Shown: in pieces, positions 2,153 to 18,223 of the stretch
Layout: each line of letters begins with the position of its first letter
Position numbering within the stretch: the stretch's first letter is position 1
Assembly: GCA_030147525.1 (NCBI GenBank)
Contig: JASBVF010000059.1
Span: 1 to 64,000 of the forward strand
Length of the DNA stretch: 64,000 nucleotides
Direction of reading: 5' to 3'
From: Bacteroidota bacterium
GTDB lineage: Bacteria; Bacteroidota; Bacteroidia; Chitinophagales; Saprospiraceae
Made by a program: the position numbers and the translations under genes
The notes under the pieces: generated by a model
The model's database searches: none
The model's input: the letters and a program-made list of their open reading frames with translations, nothing else
Told to the model about the DNA's origin: nothing

Positions 2153-5074
2153 ATGGCCAGGATCATACTTACCATCATCAGTTTTTTCATAGCCGTCAAC
2201 AGCTACGCTCAGGTTACCGGAACCGTGACTGACGCCGCTGGCGAACCCCTCATTGGGGCGACGGTCGTGCTCAAAGGCACGACGGACGGCACCATCACCG
2301 ATGTGGACGGCAGCTACAGCATCGGCGTCCGGGATGGCATCCTCGTTTTTTCCTATACCGGCTACGAATCCCGGGAAATTTCCATCGAGGGAAAAACCCG
2401 CATCGATGTTGTTTTAAAAACCGCCAGCTACATCCTCAGCGACGTGGTCGTCATCGGTTACGGAACCCAGAAAAAAGCCGACCTGACCACCGCCGTGGTG
2501 ACGGTTGGTGAAAAAGATATTGAAAACCGCCCGATGGTTTCTGCCGCTGAAGCCTTGCAGGGCAAAGCTGCGGGCGTGCAGGTGGTGCAGCCTTCCGGCA
2601 AACCGGGCGGCGACATTTCCGTCAGAGTGCGGGGCGCAACCTCCGTACTGGCCGGTAACGAACCGCTCTACGTCGTGGACGGCGTACCCACCACCGACAT
2701 CCGGGGCCTGAATCCCGCCGACATTGCCACAATGACCGTTTTGAAAGACGCCTCCTCAGCCGCCATCTACGGCGCACGGGCCGCCAACGGCGTGGTTCTG
2801 ATCACCACCAAACGGGGCCAGGCAGGCACTTCCACGATCACATTCAACGCCTACGCTGGTGTTTCCGACATTCGGAAAACGGTGGAAACGCTGACCACCA
2901 AGCAGTACCGGGATTTGATCAATGAAATCATCCCCGGCGCACTGCCCCCTGACGCCACCGGCTACACCGACTGGCAGGAAGAGGTGTTTGGCTACGGCAC
3001 CAACCAGAGCTACCAACTTGCTTTTGCCGGAGGCAATGATAAAACCCGCTACCTGTTTTCAGCCAACTACCTCAACCAGACGGGCATCGTGGAGCCTGCC
3101 AGTTTCGACCGCTACTCCGTGCGCTTGAACCTCGACAACCAGGCTACCGATTGGCTGAAAACCGGCATCAACATGAACGTGCTGCGCTCCAGCACCAAGG
3201 ACACCCCCGACAACGCCAGCAGCGGCCGGGGCGGCGTTATCATGAGCGCACTGAATACCCCGCCGTTCCTCAGCATTTACAAGGATGCAACCGAGACGCA
3301 ATACGACCCCAACCCGTTCCAGCCCTCGTGGGAGAACCCGGTGGCCTACATGTTCGGCCCCGACCAGGAGGCGACGGACACCCGGCTCTTCGGAAATTTC
3401 AACGCCGAGGCCACTGTTTTCAAAGGTTTTTCATTAAAAACCAACTTCGGCGCCGACATCAACGCCCATCAGTGGGACTACTACCTCGACCCGTTCAAAA
3501 CCAACTACGGCCGCCAGCAGAACGGCATCGGTCAGGCCGATAAATCGAACAGCGCCATTTGGCTTTGGGAAAATACTGCCAACTACACGACTACTTTCGG
3601 TGAAAACAAAGTGTCGTTTCTGGCGGGAAGCAGTATCCAGAAGTCCCGCTGGAGCAATTCGTACATCTACGGCAACGACTTCCCGGACGATGTTTCCGTG
3701 AAAACCCTCAACGCCGCCAACAGCGTCAGCGCCAGCACCAACGTGCAGGAGTGGTCGCTGGCTTCGTTTTTCGGGCGTTTCACCTACGACTACAAAAGCA
3801 AGTACCTGCTGACGGCCTCCCTTCGCCGGGACGGTTCCTCCAAACTGGCGCATCACTGGGGCACCATGCCTTCGGTTTCGGTGGGCTGGCGTATTTCGGC
3901 AGAGCCATTCATGCAGGATTTCAAAGCGATTTACGACCTGAAACTGCGGGCCGGTTGGGGTAAAAACGGCAACCAGGAGGGCATTCCGAACTACGCCCGT
4001 TACGGCCTCGTCTCTTACTACCGCCGGGCACTGACGAACCCGCTTTCCGGTCCGGCCTCGGCGCAGGTGACCTACGGCAACCCGGACCTGCGCTGGGAAA
4101 CGACCGCCCAGTCCAACATCGGCCTTGACCTGTCGCTGTGGCAGGGGCGCTTCAATTTCACCGCCGATGCCTACTACAAAAAAACGGACGACGTGCTGCT
4201 GAACGTGCAGCTTTCCAACTCGTTGCCCATCACGTCCATCCAGACGAATGCGGGTAAAATTGAAAACAGGGGTCTCGAATTCAATATTTCAACAGTAAAC
4301 ACAACCGGCGAACTGCGCTGGAACACGGATTTCAATATTTCATTTAATAAAAATGAAGTACTGGAACTGAACTACACCGACGTGTACTACTTCGGGCGGG
4401 TTTACAGCAACAACCAGGACGTGGCCATCGTGCGTGAAGGCTTGCCGCTGGGCGTCTTTTTCGGTTACGTTTCCGAAGGTGTGAACCCGGAGACGGGCGA
4501 CCTGATGTACAAAGACGTGAACGAAAACGGCATCTTCGACCCGGGCGACCGCACCGTTATCGGCGATGCCAACCCGGATTTCACCTACGGCATCACGAAT
4601 ACGCTGTCGTGGAAAAATTTCGACCTGAACGTATTCTTCCAGGGCAGCCAGGGCAACGATATTTTCAACGCCACCCGCATCGACCTGGAAGGTATGTTTG
4701 ACAGCAAAAATCAAAGCACCGCCGTGCTGCGCCGCTGGACGCCGGACAACCGGGACACCGACATTCCGAGGGCCATCGGCGGCGGCAAGGTGGACAACGT
4801 GCGCAACTCGACCCGCTTCGTGGAGGACGGTTCGTACCTGCGCCTGAAGGCCATCACTTTGCAGTACAATTTCAACCCGCAGCGCCTGGAACGCCTGAAA
4901 GTACAGCGATTCTCCGTGTACGTGACCGGCCAGAACCTGTTGACTTTCACCAAGTATAGCGGCTTCGATCCCGAGGTGAACGCCTTCGGCAGAAGTGCTA
5001 CCGAACTGGGTATCGACTACGGCACCTACCCGCAGGCAAGGACACTGACGGCGGGGGTGAATATTGAGTTTTAA
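2153..5074 (+). CDS. SusC/RagA-type TonB-dependent outer-membrane transporter
   Basis: A 973-residue protein of typical SusC length. It has a signal peptide ending SYAQ, then a carboxypeptidase-regulatory-like domain (about 20-100, VTGTVTDAAGEPLIGATV). The TonB plug starts near GYGTQKKADLTTAVV and includes PLYVVDGVP and LKDASSAAIYGARAANGV. The rest is a beta-barrel ending in an aromatic-rich strand (AGVNIEF). The family imports oligosaccharides across the outer membrane with TonB energy, closed by a SusD lid. susD follows directly, and the two GH30 enzymes downstream should supply substrate. The start gives a compact signal peptide without a long N-terminal extension. Confidence 0.95.
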   Translation: MARIILTIISFFIAVNSYAQVTGTVTDAAGEPLIGATVVLKGTTDGTITDVDGSYSIGVRDGILVFSYTGYESREISIEGKTRIDVVLKTASYILSDVVVIGYGTQKKADLTTAVVTVGEKDIENRPMVSAAEALQGKAAGVQVVQPSGKPGGDISVRVRGATSVLAGNEPLYVVDGVPTTDIRGLNPADIATMTVLKDASSAAIYGARAANGVVLITTKRGQAGTSTITFNAYAGVSDIRKTVETLTTKQYRDLINEIIPGALPPDATGYTDWQEEVFGYGTNQSYQLAFAGGNDKTRYLFSANYLNQTGIVEPASFDRYSVRLNLDNQATDWLKTGINMNVLRSSTKDTPDNASSGRGGVIMSALNTPPFLSIYKDATETQYDPNPFQPSWENPVAYMFGPDQEATDTRLFGNFNAEATVFKGFSLKTNFGADINAHQWDYYLDPFKTNYGRQQNGIGQADKSNSAIWLWENTANYTTTFGENKVSFLAGSSIQKSRWSNSYIYGNDFPDDVSVKTLNAANSVSASTNVQEWSLASFFGRFTYDYKSKYLLTASLRRDGSSKLAHHWGTMPSVSVGWRISAEPFMQDFKAIYDLKLRAGWGKNGNQEGIPNYARYGLVSYYRRALTNPLSGPASAQVTYGNPDLRWETTAQSNIGLDLSLWQGRFNFTADAYYKKTDDVLLNVQLSNSLPITSIQTNAGKIENRGLEFNISTVNTTGELRWNTDFNISFNKNEVLELNYTDVYYFGRVYSNNQDVAIVREGLPLGVFFGYVSEGVNPETGDLMYKDVNENGIFDPGDRTVIGDANPDFTYGITNTLSWKNFDLNVFFQGSQGNDIFNATRIDLEGMFDSKNQSTAVLRRWTPDNRDTDIPRAIGGGKVDNVRNSTRFVEDGSYLRLKAITLQYNFNPQRLERLKVQRFSVYVTGQNLLTFTKYSGFDPEVNAFGRSATELGIDYGTYPQARTLTAGVNIEF

Positions 5075-8253: not shown

Positions 8254-9672
8254 ATGCACCATCTCTTTTTTACACTCCTGATCATCAGCGCTTTAGGCTG
8301 CAAAGCCGATCCCAAAGACGACCCCATCATCAACGAACCACCGCCCGTCCTGCCGGTCGAAGTCTGGACGACTTCCGGTGACCAACTGAACCTGCTCTAC
8401 AAAAAAACGATCGACTTCGCCACGGGTAAGGACGACCGTTTTCAGACCCTCGAAATCTTCCCGGATCAGACTTTCCAGCCTATCGAAGGTTTCGGATTTA
8501 CCCTGACGGGTGGCAGCGCCATGCTACTCCACCAAATGGGGGCGACCGAGCGGGCAGCACTTTTGCAGGAGTTTTTTGGTAAAAACGACAACTCCATCGG
8601 CGTCAGCTACTTGCGGGTTTCCATCGGCGCTTCCGATCTGGATCCGGTGGTGTTCAGCTACGATGACCTGCCTGCCGGGCAAACCGATCCCGATCTGCAA
8701 CAGTTCAACCTGTCGAGAGACACGCTGCACCTGATCCCGGTTTTGAAAGAAATTTTAGCTATCAACCCTGAAATCAAGCTGATGGGTTCGCCGTGGAGCG
8801 CCCCGGTTTGGATGAAAAGCAACGGCAGCAGCATTGGCGGCAACCTGAAGCCGCAGTATTTCGGTGTTTACGCCCAATATTTTGTGAAATACATCCAGGC
8901 TTACCAGGCGCTCGGCATCAAAATCGACGCCGTGACGCCGCAGAACGAACCACAGCACGGCGGCAACAATCCGAGCATGGTCATGTCCGCATTCCAGCAG
9001 GCGGATTTCATTAAAAACCACCTCGGCCCGGCGTTCCAGGCGGCGGGCATTTCAACCAAAATCATCATCTGGGATCACAACTGCGACAACCCTGGCTACC
9101 CCATCGAAATTTTGGACGATCCGGCAGCTAAACCTTTCGTGCATGGCTCGGCATTTCACATGTACGCCGGCGATGCAGGCGCCCTCTCTACCGTCCACAA
9201 CGCCCACCCCGACAAGGCACTGTATTTCACCGAACAATGGACCGGCTCGAACGGCTCCTTCGACGGCGACCTGAAATGGCACATCAAAAACATCATCATC
9301 GGCACGATGCGCAACTGGAGCCGGGTGGCCTTGGAATGGAATCTCGCCAATGATCCCGATTTTGGCCCCCACACCCCCGGCGGTTGCACCCAATGCAAAG
9401 GCGCCGTGACGATCAACGGTTCGACAGCGACGAAGAATGTGAGTTTTTACATCATCGCTCAGGTGTCGAAGTTCGTGCCGCCAGGATCGGTGAGATTGGG
9501 CAGCACAGCTTCCACGCAGTTGCCGAATGTGGCGTTCCGCACGCCGGAAGGAAAAACGGTGCTGGTGGTGCTGAACGAACGCACTGATCTTCAGACGTTT
9601 AACATCAATGCGGGTGAGAAATGGATAACTGCTTCGCTGCAGGGCGGGACGGTTGGGACGTTTGTGTGGTGA
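8254..9672 (+). CDS. GH30 family glycoside hydrolase, lipoprotein (2)
   Basis: A 472-residue lipoprotein (lipobox ISALGC), 12 bp after the first GH30 gene and clearly co-transcribed. GH30 motifs are GFGFTLTGGSA (about 79-89), SPWSAPVWMK (about 179-188), the acid/base Glu232 in PQNEPQHGG and the nucleophile Glu327 in YFTEQWTG. It diverges strongly from its neighbour around the active site (QWTGSNG against ACNFPFS). The two enzymes therefore probably take different chain lengths or linkages of one polymer rather than being a recent duplication. Confidence 0.9.
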   Translation: MHHLFFTLLIISALGCKADPKDDPIINEPPPVLPVEVWTTSGDQLNLLYKKTIDFATGKDDRFQTLEIFPDQTFQPIEGFGFTLTGGSAMLLHQMGATERAALLQEFFGKNDNSIGVSYLRVSIGASDLDPVVFSYDDLPAGQTDPDLQQFNLSRDTLHLIPVLKEILAINPEIKLMGSPWSAPVWMKSNGSSIGGNLKPQYFGVYAQYFVKYIQAYQALGIKIDAVTPQNEPQHGGNNPSMVMSAFQQADFIKNHLGPAFQAAGISTKIIIWDHNCDNPGYPIEILDDPAAKPFVHGSAFHMYAGDAGALSTVHNAHPDKALYFTEQWTGSNGSFDGDLKWHIKNIIIGTMRNWSRVALEWNLANDPDFGPHTPGGCTQCKGAVTINGSTATKNVSFYIIAQVSKFVPPGSVRLGSTASTQLPNVAFRTPEGKTVLVVLNERTDLQTFNINAGEKWITASLQGGTVGTFVW

Positions 9673-9745: not shown

Positions 9746-9763
9746 GTAGTCCCGATAGGAATC
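9746..9763. repeat. attL: remnant of tRNA-Arg 3' end
   Basis: GTAGTCCCGA followed by one mismatch and AGGAATC matches 18151-18168 inside the tRNA-Arg gene. Mismatches beyond this point suggest an old insertion. Confidence 0.75.
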
Positions 9764-9873: not shown

Positions 9874-9897
9874 AAACTGTCACCAATAGTGTCACCA
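9874..9897. repeat. Left arm-type repeat
   Basis: This 24-bp sequence recurs perfectly at 18071-18094. Inside it TGTCACC occurs twice in the same direction, separated by AATAG. Paired short direct repeats near both ends are typical of tyrosine-recombinase arm sites, so integrase arm-domain binding is inferred. Confidence 0.65.
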
Positions 9898-9912: not shown

Positions 9913-9934
9913 TATTTTTGACGTGCGAAACAAT
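9913..9934 (+). promoter_or_regulatory. Integrase promoter and RNA-complementary leader
   Basis: TATTTTTG (9913-9920) fits the TAnnTTTG -7 box exactly. Two bases later comes GTGCGAAACAAT (9923-9934), also present at the 12.7 kb promoter and in reverse complement in the small RNA at 15.98 kb. This sequence would lie at the extreme 5' end of the integrase mRNA. Confidence 0.6.
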
Positions 9935-9959
9935 TCAACCACATTTAAAGCCGTGAACC

Positions 9960-11452: not shown

Positions 11453-12604
11453 ATGCAAAATGTAACGAACCGCCACACGTTGCACACTTCGGACATTTAC
11501 GCCGAACATTTCAACGCCTTCCAAGAATCACAGTTTTTCCAACAACTGGAAAGGAAGTTTCAACCGCTACCGTATTACCTGAAATTCCGACCGCTTCAAC
11601 GAATTGCGCTTTTCACCTCGTTTCTATTTAATGGCTTTTCGGCCCTGACCGCCTCGACACTGGTTTTCTTTTTCGTGGAAAGCATGACCGGCCACCGGGG
11701 AGCCGCCGCCGCCGTCACCGTTTGCGCCCTGGTTGTTTTGGAAGTCAGCAAGCGAAAAACGGGGAGCCTGTTTTTTAAAGATTGGCTTCAATTCAGGAAA
11801 GCAAGCGCCGGACTTGCGGCCCTGGTTGTTTTGTTGGCCGCCCTTTCGGTTTCGTCTTCTTACTTCGGAGCTAAACAGTTGGTGACGCAATTCACGCCGC
11901 CGCCCGACTTGGAAGATGCCACCGCCGCCGCCGCTCCGATACGTGACCAATTAGCAGAAATTGACCGGCAGATAAAAAAGCACCTCGACAACAAAAACGA
12001 CCGGGGGGAGGTGTACGTCCGAAGTCAGCGAGCCGCCGAAAGTTTGACCAAGCAAAAAGAAACGCTTTTGGCGCAATGGGTGAACATCGAAAACCGGACG
12101 GCCACCAAGAACGAAACGACCGCCGCCGCCCACGTCCAACAAACGAGCCTGAACGCTGAACACTTCGCCGCCGTCACCCTGCTTTTGGAATTGCTGTTTT
12201 TGTTATGCGCTTACTATCTGGAATACTTCGATTTTCGGAGTTTCACAGAATTTGCCGGACGTGCTGAAATTACAAACGACAACAATGTGAATTTTGCATA
12301 TACAAAGCCCGGCAGTACATCACCGCCCACCAAACCGGCCACCGGGAACGAGAAGCCGGACGGCGAAAATGACACCAGGAAAACGCCTGAAATTGCCCCA
12401 AACGGGAAGCCCTTAAACGGTAAAACAATCCACCTAAACGCCACGTCCGAAGATGCAATTCAGAAAGCTATCAAACACGTGAAAGGAAGGATTGCCAGCG
12501 CCGCCCACCGTTTGCGGAATGGCATAGGAAGACCGGAAACGAGCAAAGCGAACATCGAAAAGCACGCCGCCGAACTTCGGGAATTGGAAGCCATGTTGAC
12601 GTAA
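11453..12604 (+). CDS. Integral membrane protein with a central coiled-coil segment, unknown function
   Basis: A 383-residue protein not recognised as any named family. Three hydrophobic segments lie near 50-75, 78-96 and 115-137. A charged, coiled-coil-prone stretch follows (about 155-215), then a fourth hydrophobic segment (about 232-255) and a long polar, basic C-terminal tail ending in a helical Lys/Glu-rich segment. GCC codons are frequent, unlike the AT-rich next gene. It follows the integrase by 212 bp, a gap without a gene. The tail could be cytosolic and bind DNA or a partner; this is speculation. Confidence 0.6.
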   Translation: MQNVTNRHTLHTSDIYAEHFNAFQESQFFQQLERKFQPLPYYLKFRPLQRIALFTSFLFNGFSALTASTLVFFFVESMTGHRGAAAAVTVCALVVLEVSKRKTGSLFFKDWLQFRKASAGLAALVVLLAALSVSSSYFGAKQLVTQFTPPPDLEDATAAAAPIRDQLAEIDRQIKKHLDNKNDRGEVYVRSQRAAESLTKQKETLLAQWVNIENRTATKNETTAAAHVQQTSLNAEHFAAVTLLLELLFLLCAYYLEYFDFRSFTEFAGRAEITNDNNVNFAYTKPGSTSPPTKPATGNEKPDGENDTRKTPEIAPNGKPLNGKTIHLNATSEDAIQKAIKHVKGRIASAAHRLRNGIGRPETSKANIEKHAAELRELEAMLT

Positions 12605-12705: not shown

Positions 12706-12728
12706 TAAATTTGAGGTGCGAAACAATC
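12706..12728 (+). promoter_or_regulatory. Promoter with RNA-complementary leader
   Basis: TAAATTTG (12706-12713) fits the -7 consensus. The next 15 bases, AGGTGCGAAACAATC (12714-12728), are the exact reverse complement of 15981-15995 in the loop of the predicted small RNA. Spacing from box to motif matches the integrase promoter. Confidence 0.6.
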
Positions 12729-13671: not shown

Positions 13672-13995
13672 ATGGAGCAAGTATTATTTTCAATCAATTT
13701 GAGAGACTTTGAAAACCTTCAACGGCAATGGATGAGGGAGGAAGCCGCCAAAGCCATTGAAGCAGCACTTCCCAAAATTCAGGGTGAATTTTCAGACCTC
13801 CCCGACTTCCTTACCCGCAAACAAGCGGCCAAGATGTTATCAGTTTCTTTGGCAACCCTGGACACCTGGACTAAGGAAGGCAGGATAAAAAAACACCGTG
13901 CCGGGGGAATTGTCCGTTTTCGGAAAGATGAACTTTTGGCTAACTTCAAAAGCCTGAAAGACAGCCGCTACCAACGTTTTTTAACCTCCAAATGA
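13672..13995 (+). CDS. Small helix-turn-helix (excisionase-like) DNA-binding protein
   Basis: A 107-residue protein with a MerR/excisionase-type helix-turn-helix domain (HTH_17 class) at about 46-95. Visible motifs are FLTRKQAAKMLSVSLATLDT, the wing GRIKKHRAG and VRFRKDELL. Such proteins in tRNA-borne elements commonly act as recombination directionality factors or repressors. It overlaps the next gene by 4 bp (ATGA) and starts an operon running to 15903. Confidence 0.8.
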   Translation: MEQVLFSINLRDFENLQRQWMREEAAKAIEAALPKIQGEFSDLPDFLTRKQAAKMLSVSLATLDTWTKEGRIKKHRAGGIVRFRKDELLANFKSLKDSRYQRFLTSK

Positions 13996-15903: not shown

Positions 15904-15953
15904 CGGGCAAAGGTTTTCTTACACTAAAAAAAAGAATGTAGTTTGTGAATGTT

Positions 15954-15961
15954 TATCTTTG
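15954..15961 (+). promoter_or_regulatory. -7 box of the predicted small RNA
   Basis: TATCTTTG fits TAnnTTTG exactly and lies just upstream of a terminator-type stem-loop. No convincing -33 TTTG is seen at normal spacing. Confidence 0.5.
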
Positions 15962-15964
15962 TCG

Positions 15965-16037
15965 AAACCGTTTGCACTTGGATTGTTTCGCACCTTTCCC
16001 CGCCTTTTTCACGGCTTAGTGCAAGCGGTTTTTTTTT
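15965..16037 (+). ncRNA. Predicted antisense-type small RNA of the integrative element
   Basis: A 14-pair stem, AAACCGTTTGCACT (15965-15978) with 16018-16031 (one G-U pair), followed by a T tract. The 39-base loop holds GATTGTTTCGCACCT (15981-15995), the exact reverse complement of the leader at 12714-12728. Twelve of these bases also match the integrase leader at 9923-9934. The reverse strand here has no -7 box at the equivalent place, so a third promoter copy is unlikely. Inferred role: base pairing in trans with both leaders to restrain integration and the 12.7 kb gene. A plain long-loop terminator is the alternative. Confidence 0.55.
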
Positions 16038-16155
16038 ATTGAAAATGGCAATCTTATGATAATGTTACTGTATCCTGAATTATAGAAGTAACATATTGAT
16101 TTAAATCCGGCCTTCAGAAAAAAATTATTGGATGCGAACTTAAAATTTTGACAAA

Positions 16156-17877
16156 ATGAAAGGTAAAGCAGTCTTAGAAACTCTTAGTATTGGAATATAC
16201 CTTTTAATAATAGTTTTCTGCGGTTTATGTCTTAATGTTTTCCACCCAATGGTGATTTTCGTTTTTTATATCATCGCTATTTTCTACCTCACACTTTCAG
16301 TATTTTGGCAAATTTCCAAAGGAGAACCTTGGCAGCAGTGGTTCACCAAACGACCTGCCCGGTTTTTCATTGTCGGTCTTATTGAGGTTTTTCTAATTGT
16401 TGGTTTTTTTGATCTTTATTACCTGTTTGACATTGATAACGGGGAATACCCTTTTGGAGAATGGGATAACATTTTGATTGAAGCGCACGGATTGGTGTTT
16501 GATTTGTTAGTATTTGGCCTACTTCTTACGATTTTTGAAGCAATAAGATCAAAAAAGGATTCAATAGAGAGATACAAAGAAGAGCTGGATGATTACCGAG
16601 GATGGACAGAAAATGAAGCTGCCTATAGGGTGGCGGGGATTATCAGGAGGTTAAAAAAAATGGGGGTTAAAGACATAGACTATTCAAATTTGCACTTGGG
16701 ACAATTAGACAAAGAATCAATTGTTGAGGCCATAGTTGAAAAGGGAGTTACAGCGGCTTCATTACAGGGTGCAAATTTGGAAGGAGCCGATTTGCAGGGT
16801 GCTAATCTGGATAGCACCAATTTACGAGATGCTAACCTAATGCAAGCGAATTTAAAGGGTGCTAATCTGATGTTAGCCGAATTACAAGGTGCTTTCTTGG
16901 TTGACGCCGATTTACAAAGTGCTTTCTTGGTTGACGTCAATTTACGGGATTCATTTCTGACAAGGGCTAATTTACGGGATGCTAACCTATTGGATGCTGA
17001 TTTATCTGGTGCTTCCCTGATAAAGGCCAATCTGGAAGGTGCGAAACTGGATGATGCCAATTTAGGAATGGCTATCTTAGATGATGCCAATTTACGAAGT
17101 GCTACCCTGAAGTTATCTAATTTAGAAGGCGCTAACCTGAGAAAGGCTAATTTAGAAAATGCTAACCTAACAGGTGCCAATTTAGAAAATGCTATCCTGA
17201 TAGCCAATCTAAAAGATGCAATCCTGGTAAAAGCCAATCTAAAGAGCGCATTCCTCGAAAAAGCCATTTTAAAGGGTGCTAACTTGGATAATGCTAATTT
17301 ACAAGGTGCTTACTTGACGTTAGCCAATTTACAGGGTGCTTACTTGGAAGTAGCACACATTGAAGGTGCGAAACTTAGGCAAGTCAATTTAGAAGGTGCG
17401 AAACTGCCGGGAGTCAATTTAAAAGATGCTGACTTGGAAAAAGCCAATTTACAAATTGCTAACCTGATGTATGCTAATTTGAGAGGTGCTTACCTGAATG
17501 AGGTCGATTTACAAAAAGCTAACCTGATGTATGCTTATTTACAGGATGCTTCTTTGAATAAGGCAAATTTACAGGGTGCTTCCTTAGTGATGTCCGGTTT
17601 ACAGGGTGCTTTCCTAATAGAAGCTAATTTAGAGGGTGCGAACCTTACGCAAGTCAATTTAGAAGGTGCAAACCTGATGCACGCCAATTTGAAAGGCGCT
17701 GTTTTAGATGGAGCCAATTTAGAAGGTGTTATCGTTGAAAAACCAGATTGGATAGAAAGCCTGAAAAAAAGCGTGTTAAAGACGAAAGAGATTAAGGCAA
17801 AGTACTTTGTTGACCCTACTCCCATTAATAACCTACCGTCTAAACAATACCTTATAAAAGAAAAAACCCATAAATAA
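16156..17877 (+). CDS. Membrane-anchored pentapeptide-repeat protein
   Basis: A 573-residue protein. Hydrophobic segments lie near 10-50, 70-90 and 110-130, then a short charged helix (about 130-165). Some 70 pentapeptide units of the A(N/D)LxG type run from about 195 to 545 and should form a right-handed quadrilateral beta-helix. A short polar C-terminus follows. Such proteins sometimes mimic DNA or serve as scaffolds, but membrane-anchored ones have no general assigned role. As cargo of the element it may give a host-beneficial trait. It has low GC and its own upstream region. Confidence 0.85.
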   Translation: MKGKAVLETLSIGIYLLIIVFCGLCLNVFHPMVIFVFYIIAIFYLTLSVFWQISKGEPWQQWFTKRPARFFIVGLIEVFLIVGFFDLYYLFDIDNGEYPFGEWDNILIEAHGLVFDLLVFGLLLTIFEAIRSKKDSIERYKEELDDYRGWTENEAAYRVAGIIRRLKKMGVKDIDYSNLHLGQLDKESIVEAIVEKGVTAASLQGANLEGADLQGANLDSTNLRDANLMQANLKGANLMLAELQGAFLVDADLQSAFLVDVNLRDSFLTRANLRDANLLDADLSGASLIKANLEGAKLDDANLGMAILDDANLRSATLKLSNLEGANLRKANLENANLTGANLENAILIANLKDAILVKANLKSAFLEKAILKGANLDNANLQGAYLTLANLQGAYLEVAHIEGAKLRQVNLEGAKLPGVNLKDADLEKANLQIANLMYANLRGAYLNEVDLQKANLMYAYLQDASLNKANLQGASLVMSGLQGAFLIEANLEGANLTQVNLEGANLMHANLKGAVLDGANLEGVIVEKPDWIESLKKSVLKTKEIKAKYFVDPTPINNLPSKQYLIKEKTHK

Positions 17878-18070: not shown

Positions 18071-18094
18071 AAACTGTCACCAATAGTGTCACCA
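18071..18094. repeat. Right arm-type repeat
   Basis: Perfect 24-bp direct copy of 9874-9897, about 55 bp inside the tRNA boundary, with the same internal TGTCACC pair. Confidence 0.65.
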
Positions 18095-18148: not shown

Positions 18149-18223
18149 TGGTAGTCCCGAGAGGAATCGAACCTCTATCTCAGGCTCCGGAAACCTGCAT
18201 ACTATCCGTTGTACTACGGGACC
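18149..18223 (-). tRNA. tRNA-Arg (anticodon CCG), CCA encoded
   Basis: Read on the minus strand: acceptor GGTCCCG/CGGGACT (first pair G-U), D stem GTAC/GTAT, anticodon stem CAGGT/GCCTG with loop TTCCGGA (anticodon CCG), T arm AGAGG-TTCGATT-CCTCT, then ACCA. Length is 75 nt. The 3' end forms the right attachment site of the integrative element. Confidence 0.95.

Follow-up and report, generated by a model that had tools for sequence, protein, structure and literature searches.

A candidate antisense hairpin RNA in a Bacteroidota integrative element, complementary to the leaders of the integrase and of an excisionase-bearing transcript

The window studied here, 64,000 nucleotides long, opens contig JASBVF010000059.1 (forward strand) of a Saprospiraceae member of the Bacteroidota (assembly GCA_030147525.1, here G000; 59 contigs, 7.08 Mb in total). 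Its tRNA-Arg (CCG) gene at 18149-18223 hosts an integrative element of about 8.4 kb. The element encodes a tyrosine integrase, a second gene that we call gene2 and, starting 78 bp past gene2, an excisionase-family gene. It also holds a predicted hairpin RNA whose loop is complementary to the leaders of both the integrase and gene2 (Table 1).

A sequence-only reading of this DNA had proposed a small antisense RNA at 15954-16037, with a 14-pair stem, a T tail, a 39-base loop and a promoter box of its own, and all of these coordinates hold on direct reading. The stem contains one G-U pair, and 15962-16037 folds with a minimum free energy of -26.3 kcal/mol (z -4.97), as low as none of 200 shuffled sequences. 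Three bases 5' of the stem stands TATCTTTG. It conforms to TAnnTTTG, known from Bacteroides and Flavobacterium as the -7 promoter motif (PMC7366714). Judged on consensus, the box and the T-tailed stem would provide the promoter and terminator of a trans-acting antisense RNA, with predicted ends. Across the window, Rfam returned two tRNA matches only above gathering score; at 15940-16060 no small-RNA family was reached, the best being RybB at 17.5 bits against the 40 needed.

The complementarity described in the same reading was likewise confirmed. Loop positions 15981-15995 are exactly complementary to 12714-12728, and 15982-15993 to 9923-9934; the shared 12-mer, GTGCGAAACAAT, starts two bases past the box at both targets (TATTTTTG and TAAATTTG) and occurs three times in the 7.08-Mb assembly, every time in this element. 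A search of 398 family genomes with TANNTTTGNNGTGCGAAACA, one mismatch allowed, matched 80 genomes, most of them at one mismatch. When 20,000 dinucleotide-shuffled loops were compared with the leaders of the element's nine TAnnTTTG sites, only 2 matched any leader over at least 12 nt and 9 matched two leaders over at least 10 nt, against the 15 and 12 nt observed. The complementarity to the target leaders is thus beyond chance, as in a trans-acting antisense RNA. An addition to the earlier reading is a second loop segment, 16008-16017, which complements 10 nt just before the integrase ATG at 9948-9957 (126 of 20,000 shuffles equally good). Relative to the integrase leader the two segments stand in crossed order, which rules out that the RNA simply copies that leader in inverted form.

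Table 1. Features of the hairpin RNA, its targets and the host element (positions in the window)
Feature	Position	Strand	Basis or comment
-7 box of small RNA, TATCTTTG	15954-15961	+	sequence
5' stem arm, AAACCGTTTGCACT	15965-15978	+	sequence, folding
39-nt loop	15979-16017	+	sequence
Antisense segment A, GATTGTTTCGCACCT	15981-15995	+	within loop
Antisense segment B, TTCACGGCTT	16008-16017	+	within loop
3' stem arm (to 16031) and T run, intrinsic-terminator-like end	16018-16037	+	sequence, folding
Target 1a, GTGCGAAACAAT	9923-9934	+	expected integrase mRNA 5' end
Target 1b, AAGCCGTGAA	9948-9957	+	just before integrase ATG
Target 2, AGGTGCGAAACAATC	12714-12728	+	15-nt exact complement of loop
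-7 box of integrase promoter, TATTTTTG	9913-9920	+	sequence
Tyrosine integrase, 426 amino acids	9960-11240	+	Pfam PF13102, PF17293, PF00589
-7 box of second target, TAAATTTG	12706-12713	+	sequence
Second target gene (gene2), 283 amino acids	12743-13594	+	no Pfam/NCBIfam family above cut-off
Excisionase-family helix-turn-helix (HTH) gene	13672-13995	+	TIGR01764, 36.5 bits (cut-off 28.8); HTH_17
Left attachment repeat, GTAGTCCCGATAGGAATC	9746-9763	.	partial copy of tRNA-Arg 3' end
Right attachment repeat	18151-18168	.	within tRNA-Arg (CCG) gene
Left arm repeat, CTGTCACCAATAGTGTCACCA	9877-9897	.	identical 21-bp copy at 18074-18094
Right arm repeat	18074-18094	.	identical 21-bp copy at 9877-9897

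A DNA search of 60 genomes found the RNA in two: G000 itself, as a second copy, and G009, with a single copy of 80 bases plus a weak match of 29 bases (G009:C161). The second G000 copy lies in a sister element, L088, whose integrase is 72% identical and whose gene order is similar. The suggested check, matching loop and leader changes in related elements, held for its integrase leader: leader GTGCGAAACATTC and loop GAATGTTTCGCAC both differ from those of the window and are still complementary over 13 nt, and a 9-nt match near the ATG is retained (342 of 20,000 shuffles equally good). It failed for the gene2 leader of L088, which has the TAAATTTG box and no match to the RNA. Four of the 13 stem pairs compared also differ between the two copies: in three, compensatory changes affect both bases, and in the fourth G-U has become A-U. 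The G009 copy is an orphan: at locus L089 (7515-11826) it lies at 11746-11826, about 90 bp from a tRNA-Phe gene, beside what look by eye like a DNA methyltransferase gene and ATPase genes, and the window integrase finds no match at E <= 1e-20 in the G009 genome. This copy is probably a remnant.

Like RNAs were sought in integrase loci drawn from the genome collection (80), from viral contigs (30) and from a phylum sample (60 of the places listed for it). From the first 110 loci 91 were used, which with the window and L088 made 93; an exploratory scan covered 47. For each locus with a -7 box we took the box-to-T-run transcripts in the rest of the locus and recorded their longest exact complement to its own integrase leader, swapping in the leaders of the other loci as the control. 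This set comprised 55 loci, namely 54 plus L040, whose leader box was set by hand after the exploratory scan had shown it. Complements of at least 12 nt were found in 4 loci (0.07 expected) and of at least 11 nt in 6 (0.35 expected), one of the latter, L008, being a tRNA artefact. A hold-out of 60 new loci, 16 of them with a box, gave at least 11 nt in 2 of the 16 (0.13 expected): L216, with a 13-nt integrase complement across the start codon, and L254, with 11 nt plus 8 nt across codons 2-5. With no box required, 141 distinct leaders from 153 loci gave 9 complements of at least 12 nt (1.39 expected).

Altogether we count ten such RNAs among the 141 distinct integrase leaders (window, L088, L040, L031, L022, L018, L023, L043, L216 and L254), and 10/141 is the share detectable by these methods. 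Eight are good; L018 and L023 are weaker, with a 9-nt integrase match, and the exact TAnnTTTG box is missing in these two and in L043. Loop and leader co-vary in a further group, where several leaders open with TGTTCRA and are mirrored by TYGAACA with matching flanks in the RNA of their own locus; the leader/RNA pairs are TGTTCGATTTTT/AAAAATCGAACA in L043, TGTTCAAACCTTAA/TTAAGGTTTGAACA in L031, GTGTTCAATTTTAAT/ATTAAAATTGAACAC in L040 and TTGTTCAAAAT/ATTTTGAACAA in L254, and the 9-nt matches of L018 and L023 belong here too. In the same comparison L019, L044 and L049 had similar leader words, and no such RNA was found there. Matches not taken as RNAs are those of L008 (tRNA), of L057, L058 and L068 (attachment repeats), of L214 and L030, and others; L053 (10 nt plus a terminator) was dropped because it falls in the other half of the integrase tree and has no clear box. 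In L022 a second, similar antisense RNA lies at 9600-9650, just left of the element, where a neighbouring element in tandem probably has its right end. The integrase leaders of L016, L024, L025, L029, L032, L037 and L038 are built otherwise: the -7 box has GTGTACGGAA downstream and a near-inverted copy upstream, so that the pair spans it. This dyad is likely a protein operator for the integrase in the Spirosoma/Fibrella group, where the exact-word hits inspected by eye included no antisense RNA.

On a tree of 138 integrases all ten RNAs fall in the 69-row half that contains the window (10/69 versus 0/69). Their distribution calls for a minimum of 8 gains or losses, against a mean of 9.8 after shuffling (8 of 500 shuffles gave a value as low), and the ten are therefore scattered.

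Having been picked on the integrase leader, the ten RNAs were then compared with their own gene2 leader and with 55 control leaders. The longest complements were 15 nt in the window, 14 in L022, 12 in L043 and L216, 10 in L031 and L018, 9 in L023 and L254, 6 in L040 and 5 in L088. Six of the ten (window, L022, L043, L216, L031 and L018) matched their own leader better than all 55 controls, while L023 beat 54 and L254 beat 52; for the L043 RNA another leader of the set was slightly better (13 nt) than its own (12). A shared-leader comparison of the integrase with the next gene in 88 loci gave a modest excess, 5 sharing at least 10 nt against 1.14 expected. The L018 RNA has a further 12-nt complement at 4066-4077, within the leader of an additional gene (4087-4599) that looks HTH-like by eye and may be a third target.

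The sequence-only reading had called the second target an unknown gene. It indeed has no Pfam or NCBIfam family above cut-off, and what that reading left out is the excisionase-family gene just downstream. In all eight loci tested, the gene that follows gene2 has a TIGR01764 ('excise') match at E <= 1.6e-4, with a score above the cut-off in four (window, L088, L043 and L023); in L216 and L254 the genes at this position were read by eye only. The gene2 proteins themselves are diverged, that of the window sharing 12-17% identity with six from outside the sister pair, too low to prove homology, and their common feature is their place before an excisionase-like HTH gene. Pfam scans of gene2 gave no match to RteC (PF09357), hhalign of four gene2 proteins (L043, L023, L031 and L018) against five RteC proteins gave a probability of 0.83% (E 0.067), and no match to gene2 was found in phage records.

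Elsewhere in the host element, the attachment repeats are imperfect 18-bp copies (17/18 identical), and the arm repeats are probable integrase arm sites. A protein of 383 amino acids (11453-12604) belongs to no family above cut-off and is 92% identical to its counterpart in the sister element. Used as bait, it had matches in 16 of 248 family genomes, its own included, and none in viral contigs; nine of these loci were fetched, with an integrase match at 1e-5 in L177 only, and stand outside the complementarity test. Besides other small genes, the element carries as cargo a pentapeptide-repeat gene, which adjoins the RNA and contains three 12-nt copies of AAGGTGCGAAAC (17036-17047, 17363-17374 and 17393-17404) that are likewise complementary to the loop; they are probably a by-product of the coding repeat, and could titrate the RNA.

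We favour, as the probable explanation, a self-encoded RNA that pairs in trans and represses the integrase and the excision operon together. A terminated transcript of about 70 nt would arise from the element's own TAnnTTTG promoter, and its 39-nt loop, carried on a stable transcript-ending stem, would suit a stable, fast-pairing antisense RNA. The loop would pair with the integrase mRNA at its 5' end and at the second site just before the ATG, and also, again at the 5' end, with the transcript of gene2 and the excisionase-type gene (gene2-xis). Pairing would block translation initiation or destabilise the mRNAs, the integrase and the gene2-xis operon would be held low during the integrated state, and excision would require the RNA to drop or be outpaced. 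The sequence supports the antisense control of integration first proposed, although control of both excision functions is the better description. As far as sequence can tell, the same design recurs with other pairing sequences in other Bacteroidota integrative elements; the layout, the complementarity and the covariation within one sister pair can be read directly from the DNA.

Several observations weigh against this proposal. The crossed order of the two complements to the integrase leader precludes a single continuous duplex. L088 and L040 show no gene2 match (49 and 41 of 55 controls equally good), and by pairing energy the own gene2 leader is equalled by 8 controls or fewer in only five RNAs (window 1, L022 0, L216 0, L031 4 and L043 8), the other five having 21 to 40 equally good controls. 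Only five of the nine complements of at least 12 nt found with no box required are true such RNAs (L040, L088, L216, L043 and the window); the rest are an attachment repeat (L057), a shared promoter box (L022), the gene2 leader strand (L023) and L214, not taken as an RNA. A sense-orientation control on the same transcripts gave 7 matches of at least 11 nt against 13 antisense, and 5 of at least 12 nt against 9, although the sense hits include attachment repeats, a box, second-target leaders and low-complexity matches. Ranking by duplexfold across 45 loci was non-significant (Kolmogorov-Smirnov p 0.83), with a candidate filter that missed the RNA of L088. An energy ranking of 45 near-clade loci placed four in the top 5%, all previously known; it missed six of the ten known RNAs and placed none of the 35 other loci there. 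Because these all-locus rankings are non-significant, prevalence is uncertain. Lastly, we infer transcription, pairing, repression and excision control by the RNA from DNA sequence.

One could instead take GTGCGAAACAAT as a DNA operator at which an HTH protein of the element binds both promoters, the inverted third copy being due to chance or autoregulation. Two copies do lie right after a -7 box, a common repressor position, and operators do occur elsewhere, the Spirosoma/Fibrella leader word GTGTACGGAAT being half of an inverted repeat that spans its promoter. Neither leader of the window, however, has an inverted copy nearby at two mismatches or fewer; the third copy is inverted within a hairpin loop, with a box about 20 bp before it and a terminator behind it; close to the ATG lies a further complement, unrelated to the first; and other elements repeat the layout with other sequences. 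In L216, moreover, the integrase and gene2 sites fall in different parts of the RNA, which a shared operator does not predict. We regard an operator as quite unlikely. Most improbable is that the hairpin is a mere terminator of the small genes upstream (to 15903), its match a leftover of a duplicated leader: it does lie 3' of co-directional genes and end in a T run, yet a -7 box directly precedes the stem, a 39-nt loop is unusual, the integrase-leader complements are permuted, unlike those of a simple inverted copy, the L088 copy shows covariation, and at L089, near a tRNA, box and hairpin persist in the G009 genome, where this integrase finds no match at E <= 1e-20.

The RNA might also pair as proposed and act through premature transcription termination or target activation. 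The CI RNA of satellite phage P4 acts by termination (PMC4825925), and the targets here are at mRNA 5' ends; the complements in L022, L216 and L254 reach the start codon or first codons, and the second site in the window lies just before the ATG, all of which favours a translation block and makes this alternative unlikely.

The favoured RNA, a repressor of integrase and gene2-xis together, would have partial precedents. IS10/Tn10 RNA-OUT is likewise a short RNA that a mobile element directs at its own recombinase mRNA: complementary to the 5' end, it blocks ribosome binding and limits movement. It is transcribed from the DNA strand opposite its target, which gives 35 nt of perfect complementarity (PMC5006887). 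The present RNA gene, in contrast, lies about 6 kb from the integrase leader and beside neither target, so it is no cis-antisense RNA; the longest exact integrase matches are 9-15 nt, a second target precedes xis, and the enzyme is a tyrosine integrase. P4 CI RNA, too, is element-encoded, complementary to two sequences of its own element (seqA and seqC) and active in the lysogenic state (PMC4825925). The present RNA differs in having a promoter box and a terminator of its own, and its targets would be the integrase and the gene2-xis transcript; the box disfavours CI-like processing. As described in the available portions of PMC5006887 and PMC4825925, neither RNA is trans-encoded with joint integrase and gene2-xis targets. 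RteR of the Bacteroides conjugative element CTnDOT, about 90 nt, is trans-encoded as well, and the target reported in the portion of PMC7366714 at hand is the tra operon, not integrase or excisionase leaders. The sgm-sRNA of SGI1 is also encoded by the integrative element itself and is required for mobilisation, with no antisense target named in the part of PMC9299015 available. In the open-access literature, mostly titles and abstract openings, we found no description of an antisense RNA against a Bacteroidota tyrosine integrase.

To our knowledge, little is known of how small Bacteroidota integrative elements decide whether to stay or leave. Comparing own-leader with swapped-leader complementarity offers a way of finding RNAs that are invisible to sequence families. 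If the proposal is right, one RNA over the integrase and gene2-xis transcripts would be a simple switch, and the variable pairing segment would predict which elements repress one another. A more tentative extension, which we hold possible rather than probable, is that fast-evolving antisense RNAs, pairing with both leaders, serve as the repressor in many Bacteroidota integrative elements and, since the best partner of each RNA is its own leader sequence, define superinfection-immunity groups. Such groups would be a base-pairing counterpart of phage repressor immunity.
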